This document shows, piece after piece, positions 1-6,321 of a stretch of 46,939 nt of DNA. The DNA lies in NCBI GenBank assembly GCA_002084955.1, contig MZGJ01000002.1:1-46939 (forward strand). The letters are read 5' to 3'. The first letter of the stretch is position 1, and every line of letters starts with the position of its first letter. The notes under the pieces were generated by a model, which saw only the letters and a list, made by a program, of their open reading frames with translations, had not been told where the DNA came from and did not search any database. This stretch comes from a candidate division CPR3 bacterium 4484_211 (lineage in GTDB: Bacteria; Patescibacteriota; 4484-211). Position numbers and translations under genes: made by a program.

Positions 1-27
1 CGAAAACGTTAAGTGGAATACTACCTT

Positions 28-42
28 GATAGCTACTTTTCT
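28..42. repeat. Left arm of 15-bp inverted repeat flanking ORF1
   Basis: GATAGCTACTTTTCT here is the exact reverse complement of 732-746. The two arms enclose the first gene, one ahead of its ribosome binding site and one spanning its stop codon. A perfect 15-bp pair 700 bases apart is unlikely by chance. It may be a mobile-element boundary, a cassette boundary or an mRNA end-pairing structure. No transposase is present. Confidence 0.7.
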
Positions 43-66
43 TAAATAAACTTAAGGAGGAAAACT

Positions 67-741
67 ATGGATAAGTTCGAATACTACCTTAAAAAATTGG
101 CTGATCACGAAGATGAAAAATCTAAACCTTATTTAAGTGGCCCTCGAGCACGAATATTGGTAAATGCAGGAATTAGGCTTAACTGGTTAGGTGATTTCCT
201 TGCCAATCCTGAAATTAAATGGGAAGAACGAGAATTACCTGTTGAAAAAATACAATTTACGGGAACTAGCCTCAAATGGAATAAGGTCTTAATTGATCAG
301 TGTGGGAGATCGGTAAGTAAGTTTAGAGCACTGATGGCAAGGAATCCTAAATTGAAAGAAGAATTTCAGCAGGAAGCATCATTTGGAAATGAAATAATCT
401 TAGTGAGAAAAAGCGAGGGGGAAGGGTTTTATAAGGTGCTTGATGGCATGCACCGATTTATGGGAGCTGTTTTAGAAGGCAAAGAAAAGCTGCGAGTATT
501 TCTGCCTATTAATGAAGATGAACATTTGCCGGTATGTGAAGCACATACAGTCTATGATCTCATTCGTGGATTTGTTAGGAACGCAAAGGACAGAGAAGGA
601 GAGATGGGTTTGTATCATGCTTTGAAACTGCTATGCAGAACATACGCGAACGTTAAGGGATTACTTAGAGAAAGGTTTAATAAAGACTACGTACATGACG
701 ATAAGGTTCAGAAGATTATTAAAAAAGTATTAGAAAAGTAG
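67..741 (+). CDS. ParB/sulfiredoxin-fold-like hypothetical protein
   Basis: A 224-residue soluble protein with no signal peptide or membrane segment. Residues about 112-146 (VLVRKSEG-type strand, then VLDGMHRFMGAVLEGK, then LRVFLP) resemble the D-G-x-H-R-x-x-A core of ParB/Srx-like domains, which bind nucleotides or act as nucleases or nucleotide-dependent switches. The basic C-terminal part (about 165-224) is unassigned. The start is well supported: AAGGAGG lies 6-7 bases before ATG, a strong Shine-Dalgarno site unlike the leaderless-looking starts of the housekeeping genes in this window. It stands alone, enclosed by a 15-bp inverted repeat and followed by an attC-like palindrome, which suggests an acquired gene. 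The fold assignment comes from one motif and is tentative; no function is claimed. Confidence 0.5.
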   Translation: MDKFEYYLKKLADHEDEKSKPYLSGPRARILVNAGIRLNWLGDFLANPEIKWEERELPVEKIQFTGTSLKWNKVLIDQCGRSVSKFRALMARNPKLKEEFQQEASFGNEIILVRKSEGEGFYKVLDGMHRFMGAVLEGKEKLRVFLPINEDEHLPVCEAHTVYDLIRGFVRNAKDREGEMGLYHALKLLCRTYANVKGLLRERFNKDYVHDDKVQKIIKKVLEK

Positions 742-746
742 CTATC
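732..746. repeat. Right arm of 15-bp inverted repeat flanking ORF1
   Basis: AGAAAAGTAGCTATC is the partner of 28-42. It contains the TAG stop codon of ORF1 (739-741). Confidence 0.7.
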
Positions 747-758
747 TGCGTTATACGT

Positions 759-841
759 CGTTTAACACGGCAATATCTTAAATTTGCTGACAAAAACTTC
801 GTTTTTGGTGCAAACTTCGGATATACCGACGATATTAAACG
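759..841. other. attC-like imperfect palindrome
   Basis: The segment can fold into one long interrupted hairpin. From outside in, the stems are CGTTTAA/TTAAACG, CGG/CCG, ATATC/GATAT, TTTGC/GCAAA and CAAAAAC/GTTTTTG, with a TTC loop. The outer left box GTTTAAC (760-766) fits the integron R'' consensus RYYYAAC. The matching right box ATTAAAC (834-840) differs from GTTRRRY only at the first G. The placement (about 20 bases after a small gene's stop codon), the size and the extrahelical bases all resemble an integron attC site, but no integrase is visible. It could instead be an unrelated palindrome or a weak terminator. Confidence 0.35.
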
Positions 842-866
842 AGATTACTATTAACTTTCCTAAATT

Positions 867-1010
867 ATGGATATAGTAAAAAAATCAAGAAATTTTGCTC
901 TTTCCGAAATAGAAAAATTTGGTGTCCCTCATTTGATTCATTTTGAAATTGCTGAGAAGAAAGCAATTCAACTAGTTGGCAGAGGACCGGCTCATTTGCG
1001 TTTTCGCCGC
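867..1010 (+). pseudogene. N-terminal fragment of HD-domain-like protein
   Basis: The first 40 or so codons (MDIVKKSRNFALSEIEKFG..., then HLIHFEIAEKKAIQLVG) look like the N-terminal helix region of small HD-type phosphohydrolases found in archaea and CPR bacteria, where an amphipathic helix precedes a HFE/IA..G.xLA segment. The similarity then stops abruptly. The remaining residues are basic and low in complexity, and the frame runs into the 3' end of the oppositely oriented glycosyltransferase at 1025. No metal-binding H...HD is reached. This is probably a truncated gene left at a recombination junction. Family assignment is from memory of the motif only. Confidence 0.35.
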
Positions 1011-1024
1011 TTTAAATTCACCAC

Positions 1025-2233
1025 TTATTTTAAGCAAATTTGTTTAAAGGCTTGCAGATATTCCTCGGCGGTATTTTTCCAGGAGAATTTTTGACTGAAT
1101 TGCTTGGCGTTTTTGCCCAGTTTCTTCCGTACTTCTTCTTTCTGTATAAATTGCTCAAGATAATTTTTAAACTCTTCTAAATTATCTGCTATAAATCCAG
1201 TTTTTCCATGTTTTATTATCTCGTTGGCAGCGCAAAAGTTGAGTGCTAATGAAGGTTTTCCAAAAGAGGCGGCCTCCATTATTGGCAGCCCGAAGAACAA
1301 ATACCGGTCGCAGGTAGCATATGCTTCACACGACTGATAGAAGGTTGCCAGCTGTTTGTCGGGGATGTTGGTATAAAAAAGAACGTCCGGAGTTGAAATT
1401 TTTTTTAGATAATTTAGGTACTTTTTGGAACCTAAAGAACCGGCCAGAATTAGCTTTAAGTTGCCATATTTAAGACTAAGCTGCTTAAAGATTTCAATTA
1501 GGTGATGAAAGCCTTTATATGGCGTGAACCGGCTTACGGAGAGAATGGTGAACTTGGCTTTGGGCTTGCTCGTCTGCTCGGTCCACTGGATTTGCCCTGC
1601 ATCAAAGCGAGTTGAAACGGGTTGGTGGAGCGGACAGCTTGTTGTCTGAGGGTTGTCGTCGGGGGTTGCGGGAAGTAGTTTTGTTCCTTGATAGATAAAG
1701 AGAGCGTGGCGGCGGTATAGTTTTTTTACTTCCTGTTGCGTGTATTGGCTGATGGCGATAACTTTTTGGGCGGAAAGGATTGAGAGAGCTGATTTTAGCC
1801 AGATGATGGTATTGAGCAGCTTGTCTAGAGGAGTGATAAGATAAGATCCCAGGGAATTGGGAATAAGCTTTTCTTTAAGAATGTTGAATTGAGTTCCGTG
1901 GTAAGTCATTACTGTGGGTAAGCCCGTTAGCTTGCACCCGATGAAGAAGGGCAGCATGCAGTGGGTGGAGAGAAGCCTTGGTTGGTCTTTTTTAATTGTG
2001 TAGGTGAGATTTAAAGCGGTTATCCATCGGCCGATAAATGGCGTTTTGTTTTGGGAAAGAAGTCTAGTTTTTACCCCATGGTTTTCCAGATCTTTTTGGG
2101 TGTCTGGGTCTTTTTGGCTATCGGTGGCATAGAAAAGAACCTCGTTTTTTTCAGCCAGAGCTTTTGCCAGTTCAATGGGCGCACGAGCTCCGGATTTGGG
2201 ATTGCAGATTTCGGCAACAACAGCAATTCGCAT
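1025..2233 (-). CDS. Glycosyltransferase family 4 (GT-B)
   Basis: A 402-residue GT-B glycosyltransferase without a membrane segment. The N-terminal Rossmann half begins MRIAVVAEIC and contains a SGARAPIELAKAL segment typical of GT4 acceptor domains. The C-terminal nucleotide-sugar half has SVSRFTPYKGFHHLIEIF (about 232-250) and the conserved E-x7-E region FGLPIMEAASFGKPSLA (about 316-332). Such enzymes transfer a sugar from an NDP-sugar to a growing surface glycan or lipid-linked oligosaccharide. It is the last gene of the minus-strand polysaccharide cluster, starting 8 bases after the beta-helix gene, so probably co-transcribed. The stretch at about 183-225 is Pro/Thr/Gln-rich and may be a lineage-specific insertion. 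Sugar specificity cannot be read from sequence. Confidence 0.85.
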   Translation of the reverse strand: MRIAVVAEICNPKSGARAPIELAKALAEKNEVLFYATDSQKDPDTQKDLENHGVKTRLLSQNKTPFIGRWITALNLTYTIKKDQPRLLSTHCMLPFFIGCKLTGLPTVMTYHGTQFNILKEKLIPNSLGSYLITPLDKLLNTIIWLKSALSILSAQKVIAISQYTQQEVKKLYRRHALFIYQGTKLLPATPDDNPQTTSCPLHQPVSTRFDAGQIQWTEQTSKPKAKFTILSVSRFTPYKGFHHLIEIFKQLSLKYGNLKLILAGSLGSKKYLNYLKKISTPDVLFYTNIPDKQLATFYQSCEAYATCDRYLFFGLPIMEAASFGKPSLALNFCAANEIIKHGKTGFIADNLEEFKNYLEQFIQKEEVRKKLGKNAKQFSQKFSWKNTAEEYLQAFKQICLK

Positions 2234-5321: not shown

Positions 5322-6251
5322 TTATTGCTCTATATTTCTTAGTGCTTCCGAGAAGGCTTTTACTTTAAGTACAATATTTTCCTTCTTTTTTGCCAGATAC
5401 CGAAGGAGACTAAAAAAGGTCAGGTGGAGGGAAATGCTTATGATTTTCTGGGGAAGGTTTGAGTGTTTTAGTATCAGTCGAAATTTGGCTTTGTAGTAAT
5501 CGTAGTAGTCTTTGGAAAAGTCCGAATTCTCCGGAATCTGGCTTTGAGAATTTTTTGGACCTACTCTCTTTGCCCTCGGGCTTTTACTCTTGCCGTGATA
5601 GACAATAGCGTTGGGCAGACTGACCACTTTATATCCAGCCTTTTTGGCTCGCAGGCAGAAATCGGCATCTTCGCCAAAAAAGAAAAATTTTTCATCAAAC
5701 AGGCCGATTTTATCCACCAGGCTTTTTTTAAACATCATACTGCAGCCGGCAATCCAGTCGCATTCTTTAACCCGGCCGCAATTTTTAAGCCCGCATTCCG
5801 TTCCCAGCCATCGGTTCCAGGTATAGCCGCAAGAGATAATTTGATGGGGTTTGGTTTTGGAGACCACCTTCGCCCCCACTACTCCTACTTCTGGGTTCGT
5901 TTGTAGGTGATTTGCTAGAATTGGCAGGGTATTTGTGGTTAATGTTTGGTCATTGTCTGAGCAGAAAATTAGTTCTCCTTGTGCTTTTTCTATTCCTCTA
6001 TTGCGGGCATAGGCTGGGCCATAGTTTTTATCCAGTTCAATAATTTTAACTTTGGGGAAGTGCTGTTGCACTAGTTTCACCGTGCCGTCTTGTGAGTGAT
6101 TGTCTATCATAATAATTTCAATCTGGCCTTGAGGGAAGGGCGATTGCTTAATTGAGCCTAGGTAATCTAGAGTATCCTGCCTCCTGTTCCAGGAGGGGAA
6201 GATGATGGAGAGACCAATATTGGGCTTTTGATTGCAGGGGGATTTATGCAT
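5322..6251 (-). CDS. GT2 glycosyltransferase
   Basis: A 309-residue GT-A family 2 enzyme. Visible motifs are LSIIFPSWNRRQDTLDYL (14-31), IIMIDNHSQDGTVKLV (about 45-60), the DXD-type FCSDNDQTL (about 93-101) and GLFDEKFFFFGEDADFCLRA (about 182-201), which carries the likely catalytic acidic pair. Its architecture matches its neighbour at 4162, so the two probably add successive sugars to one repeat unit. A gap of 221 bases separates it from the flippase upstream. A possible -10 TATTAA sits six bases before the ATG, so it may have its own promoter. Confidence 0.85.
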   Translation of the reverse strand: MHKSPCNQKPNIGLSIIFPSWNRRQDTLDYLGSIKQSPFPQGQIEIIMIDNHSQDGTVKLVQQHFPKVKIIELDKNYGPAYARNRGIEKAQGELIFCSDNDQTLTTNTLPILANHLQTNPEVGVVGAKVVSKTKPHQIISCGYTWNRWLGTECGLKNCGRVKECDWIAGCSMMFKKSLVDKIGLFDEKFFFFGEDADFCLRAKKAGYKVVSLPNAIVYHGKSKSPRAKRVGPKNSQSQIPENSDFSKDYYDYYKAKFRLILKHSNLPQKIISISLHLTFFSLLRYLAKKKENIVLKVKAFSEALRNIEQ

Positions 6252-6321
6252 TGGTATTTAATAGTTCAGCCGTTTTGCGCATTTGTTTTATTGATGTCTA
6301 TTTACGTTAACAAAAGGAGAT

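Follow-up and report, generated by a model that had tools for sequence, protein, structure and literature searches.

The window, i.e., the whole stretch of 46,939 nt analysed here, is contig C23 of a genome of 826 kb in 39 contigs, whose nearest relatives in sequence searches are Patescibacteria/CPR. Since base 1 of the window is also the first base of the contig, no upstream extension is possible and any array further upstream stays out of sight. The first 1024 bases hold a gene between the two arms of an inverted repeat, a folded element behind it and the beginning of a second, truncated unit:

1 to 20, plus strand: what the contig start leaves of an upstream attC, namely its right end (R' side), with core GTT at 8-10
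9 to 834, plus strand: gene cassette of 826 bp, from the TT of the upstream core to the A of the downstream core
28 to 42, plus strand: 5' arm of the inverted repeat, exact complement of 732-746, 20 nt after the upstream GTT core
55 to 60, plus strand: Shine-Dalgarno-like AGGAGG of ORF1, from the sequence
67 to 741, plus strand: ORF1 (224 aa, from the ORF list), the cargo of the cassette
732 to 746, plus strand: 3' arm of the inverted repeat; the downstream AAC core follows 20 nt later
760 to 840, plus strand: attC, with R'' GTTTAAC at 760-766, a stem-loop and R' ATTAAAC at 834-840; joint profile score 16.7 bits
835 to 1024, plus strand: start of the next cassette, truncated; its ORF, from 867, breaks off near 1004, where the cassette appears to meet a glycosyltransferase gene

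Given that bases 1-20 are the right end of another attC, 9-834 makes up one cassette, with ORF1 inside it in array orientation; its boundaries were set by analogy with the cassettes of 21 other CPR genomes.

The arms GATAGCTACTTTTCT (28-42) and AGAAAAGTAGCTATC (732-746) form an exact 15-bp inverted repeat, as the earlier note had claimed, and such repeats are rare: with perfect arms of 15 bp or more and a spacing of 300-1200 bp, nine (about six of them independent) exist in the 826 kb, as against none or one per whole-genome shuffle. A search for the 15-mer elsewhere, which that note had advised, found no other copy in the whole 826-kb genome. That the repeat brackets a single gene is true in part, for it encloses ORF1, but only loosely, since its 3' arm overlaps the end of the gene (stop at 739-741). 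The two arms are equidistant from the two attC cores (20 nt and 20 nt, offset 0), a pattern common in CPR cassettes, and for this reason the repeat and the attC, which had been put forward as two separate hints, belong together.

The folded element with GTTTAAC and ATTAAAC boxes, previously placed at 759-841, proved real: the hairpin at 760-840 is more stable than all 200 shuffles on both strands (z = -3.5 on the plus strand and -3.9 on the minus strand). It has the R'' box GTTTAAC and the hairpin of an attC, but is degenerate in three respects: the core is ATT in place of GTT, the spacer is one base longer and the stem is weak (6 of 11 pairs without gaps). An ATT core is also seen in 5 of the 85 attCs from other CPR arrays, and in the copies on contigs C15 and C3. 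An attC model scan, also advised beforehand, was run over the whole 826 kb with profiles from 42 attCs, all from other CPR genomes and none from the present one. By joint left-right score the three attCs of contig C38 ranked highest (41.3, 33.5 and 21.6 bits), followed in fourth place by the window site (16.7 bits, plus strand, cores near 764 and 833), whilst the next, non-attC place reached 4.0 bits and the maximum of ten whole-genome shuffles was 10.2. The GTTAAGT at 8-14, suspected of being an attC end, is contained in CGAAAACGTTAAGTGGAATA and agrees with the right-end form of CPR attCs; the right profile gives a partial match in the correct orientation at 5-21 (5.3 bits, weak alone). The content of the window alone, one attC and a 20-nt fragment of another, is not cleanly a two-site array.

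Single attC-like sites occur on three other contigs. The one on C15 (G000, L003 4741-4797) is 83% identical to the window hairpin over 57 bp, shares its ATT core and extra spacer base, and lies 27 bases before a 131-aa ORF for which no family matches were found. A DNA search with the window hairpin over the genomes of the same family gave only this copy; the system came to light through the recombinase. On C3 (L134 5548-5582, near the contig end) the right half of an attC adjoins an apparent transposase C-terminus, and C9 (L099 3949-3969) carries an orphan left half; the C3 and C9 sites are scattered remnants of cassette arrays.

ORF1 has no match in Pfam, and only a weak ParB-like signal around a DGMHRF motif (TIGR00180, E 0.03, below cut-off). 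A homologue 58% identical to it exists in another genome of the same phylum, no attC was detectable beside the gene of its best homologue (G019), and a search for viral relatives found none. Its AlphaFold prediction, made without an alignment, was poor (pLDDT 44), so no claim is drawn from the structure. The truncated ORF behind the attC (867-1004) reads MDIVKKSRNFALSEIEKFGVPHLIHFEIAEKKAIQL, and its start may resemble HD-domain proteins; no relative of it, full-length or not, was found in eight class genomes or the retrieved loci. It is convergent with the glycosyltransferase gene (1025-2233, minus strand), from whose proximity the cassette appears to end near 1004-1024. The degenerate attC and the truncated neighbour together indicate that this piece of array is probably a remnant.

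In place of the integrase and further cassettes that the earlier note had advised looking for upstream, a recombinase with a cassette array turned up on a different contig of the same genome. Searches gave three tyrosine recombinases. One of them, on C38, neighbours small ORFs that are read from the opposite strand and have hairpins with AAC...GTT ends between them. C38 thus has the layout of an integron, with at least two attCs on one strand and an adjacent divergent recombinase gene; no recombinase adjoins the cassette array on the window's own contig, the gene being on C38. That the C38 array came in through misbinning was considered and rejected, since C38 bears long runs of ordinary chromosomal genes, an argument that covers C38 and not C23. 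An attI of the conserved form was not recognised at C38. Between its recombinase and first attC (L014 2500-2650) there are nested inverted repeats, CTAACGTGCGCGAGTA...TACTCGCGCACGTTA.

The C38 protein matches NF040815 (site-specific tyrosine recombinase/integron integrase) with 234.7 bits at a cut-off of 220, a family that all 16 aligned relatives match as well, and scores 205.6 bits against the integron integrase model TIGR02249, below the cut-off of 265. The stretch corresponding to IntI1 195-246, which includes the IntI-specific region, is largely absent from the CPR proteins (about 270 aa), with no counterpart of 195-200, 206-230 and 236-246; the alignment of IntI4 to the CPR recombinase splits where that region sits. 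The IntI-specific additional (patch III) domain is accordingly missing. In the tree the CPR recombinases form one separate clade (support 98/94), with IntI1 and a Bacteroidota XerA close by, the placement of IntI1 relative to XerA being unsure because of long outgroup branches. A predicted structure made from the 16 relatives (pLDDT 83.7) is closest in the PDB to IntI4 chains, and next to XerA, at modest TM-scores.

A relative of this recombinase (56% identical), from a genome of the same family, is encoded in the same layout, with about five cassettes, and scanning 84,980 genomes with the two proteins gave 66 loci, mostly labelled as CPR lineages. A first, stricter attC scanner returned almost no sites; the relaxed structural scan used instead returned 67 on the expected cassette strand, 17 on the other strand and 11 in shuffles. 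CPR attCs are conserved in sequence (left ATCRYATAACACGGCATATCTGGTTC, right AACWTCAGATATGCCGAAACGTTATGTGAAATA) and have short 1/4 or 1/3 spacers. The 66 loci contain 88 sites that score 15 bits or more, and every one of them lies upstream (5') of the recombinase, on the strand opposite to it (minus), a count that includes the loci which supplied the training sites of the profiles; of the 46 sites that had no part in the training, 22 form at least 9 of 11 stem pairs, compared to 6.6% of mismatched halves. Among the 41 loci with room for an array, 36 have at least one attC; two or more are present in 22, the maximum being nine. About two thirds of the loci have an attI-like motif, ATACGAAAACACTTCGTATATAAACGAGTTA, with a conserved GTT core, at 66-170 nt from the start of the recombinase gene. 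The array of nine sites belongs to a Candidatus Peribacteria locus (L080 599-6360), whose recombinase has diverged further than that of any other array-bearing locus; two of its cassettes (in the regions 5864-6266 and 1387-1789) are near-identical, which suggests duplication within the array.

The ends of CPR cassettes were compared in 49 cassettes bounded by two attCs, from 21 genomes, where the longest ORF is on the array strand in 44. In 63% of them the two ends of the same cassette share an internal inverted repeat that is exact over 12 bp or more, whilst mismatched ends do so at 2.2% when paired within a locus and 1.4% when paired between loci; each cassette has a repeat sequence of its own, which pairs with itself only. 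Pairing is symmetric from the cores, running through the 9 bp of the R box and a conserved 2x2 mismatch out to about 25-30 nt (0.5-0.65 vs 0.3), and the offset is at most 4 nt in 22 of the 36 repeats that are 11 bp or longer. In class 1 cassettes, a small control with slightly different end trimming, none of nine has such an internal repeat and pairing ends after about 10-12 nt (Fisher p = 4e-4). The 15-bp repeat of the window had at first been expected to be of chance origin, an expectation overturned by this comparison. As far as could be checked, own-end inverted repeats are a new feature of cassettes. In L082 and other loci, the starts of several unrelated cassettes have in common TTTTGGCAATTTATT-like or TTTTTTGAAATTTTTT-like stretches inside their own-end repeats, possibly promoters.

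How else could the window be read? The 'small mobile unit of another kind' of the earlier note could be a transposon-like unit, i.e., a gene between terminal inverted repeats moved by a transposase in trans, with an incidental hairpin. The exact repeat around one gene would fit this, as would the transposase-like ORFs elsewhere in the genome, but no transposase is found among the ORFs inside the repeat-bounded unit, and the 15-mer has no second copy, so that the combination of shared repeat copies and a transposase expected of such a transposon is not what the genome holds. The repeats of CPR cassettes are private to each cassette, unlike the shared ends of transposons, the arms sit symmetrically inside attC cores, and 760-840 fits attC profiles; we therefore consider a transposon strongly disfavoured and very improbable. 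Equally slim are the chances of an ordinary terminator or RNA element, free of recombination, in which the repeat would pair the ends of the ORF1 mRNA. The strong folding of 760-840 and the similar element before the small ORF on C15 would suit it; against it, an Rfam search returned tRNAs only, with no match for the hairpin, which does fit profiles from the arrays of other genomes, and the right end of an attC lies upstream at 1-20. Nor would a terminator explain the strict strand and side bias in the 66 loci, or AAC/GTT cores conserved where the hairpin varies.

A different matter is whether the array piece is still alive. It could be a dead remnant, with cassette and attC real by descent and recombination ceased, a relic like the sites on C15, C3 and C9. 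The ATT core, the longer spacer and the weak stem of the site, the truncation of the second cassette and the scattered single sites elsewhere all point that way, whilst the ATT cores of other CPR arrays, the own-end repeat still perfect over 15 bp and the upstream GTT core speak against it. On balance we lean towards a relic, which is compatible with the cassette-array reading and is likely the present state of the array piece; judged from its sequence, its activity is doubtful. The best explanation is that window 1-1024 is what remains in the chromosome of an array of gene cassettes belonging to a CPR-type integron (probability about 0.9), with the right end of an attC, a gene, an attC and a truncated cassette in the window, and an array with its recombinase on C38. 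This bears out the earlier note's suggestion that a CPR genome here carries a cassette of an integron-like array.

In the proposed mechanism, the XerA/IntI-like tyrosine recombinase of C38, which could also serve the window site, would cut out the cassette between two attCs as a circle, to be inserted at attI or another attC, with cleavage at the RTT core of the folded single strand. In the circle the cassette ends would adjoin, and the repeat 28-42/732-746 would add a long outer stem to the attC hairpin, a stem that the integrated array would not form. Joined circle ends are predicted to fold better than the array form in 37 of the 49 cassettes (median -8.1 kcal/mol), and the window cassette at -29.4 kcal/mol as a circle against -22.1 in the array. 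Owing to such an extended stem the recombinase might act more readily on the free cassette than on the integrated one, favouring capture over loss, though this link from extended cruciform to capture bias is a hypothesis. Whether CPR bacteria have an integron class of their own, with XerA-like recombinases devoid of the IntI-specific domain, long private repeats and a circle cruciform favouring capture, is a proposition to which we give even odds.

Like the integrons known from IntI, attI and attC, including sedentary chromosomal ones and CALINs, the CPR system has mostly one-gene cassettes on one strand, a divergent recombinase gene, an attI with a conserved GTT core, and attCs with R''/R' boxes and an imperfect hairpin. 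It differs from them in the size of its recombinase (about 270 aa), which lacks the IntI-specific region and falls below the TIGR02249 cut-off, in attCs conserved in sequence and with short spacers, and in the long own-end inverted repeats of its cassettes. With XerA-type recombinases (NF040815) the C38 protein and its 16 relatives share a family match, that of the C38 protein lying above cut-off, yet the CPR proteins stand apart as a separate clade. Archaeal XerA acts in chromosome dimer resolution at dif, and is not known to work on cassette arrays. Archaeal integrons (Ghaly et al. 2022, PMC9668308) resemble the CPR system in having cassette arrays, folded attCs and attI in metagenome-assembled genomes; their IntIs, however, bear the IntI-specific domain, which was required in their detection and which CPR recombinases lack.

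By its architecture, then, the CPR system would work like an integron; by the domain criterion of surveys its recombinase would not be an IntI. This domain defines integron integrases, and surveys of the IntegronFinder type require it, with the consequence that complete CPR integrons of this kind would go unseen or be filed as CALINs. The open-access literature yielded no earlier account of CPR integrons (preprints and subscription journals being outside the scope of the search). The own-end inverted repeats are simple to test. CPR integrons raise the question of whether the use of attCs preceded the IntI-specific domain or was acquired without it, and a cassette platform gives the small, streamlined genomes of CPR bacteria a route for gene gain.
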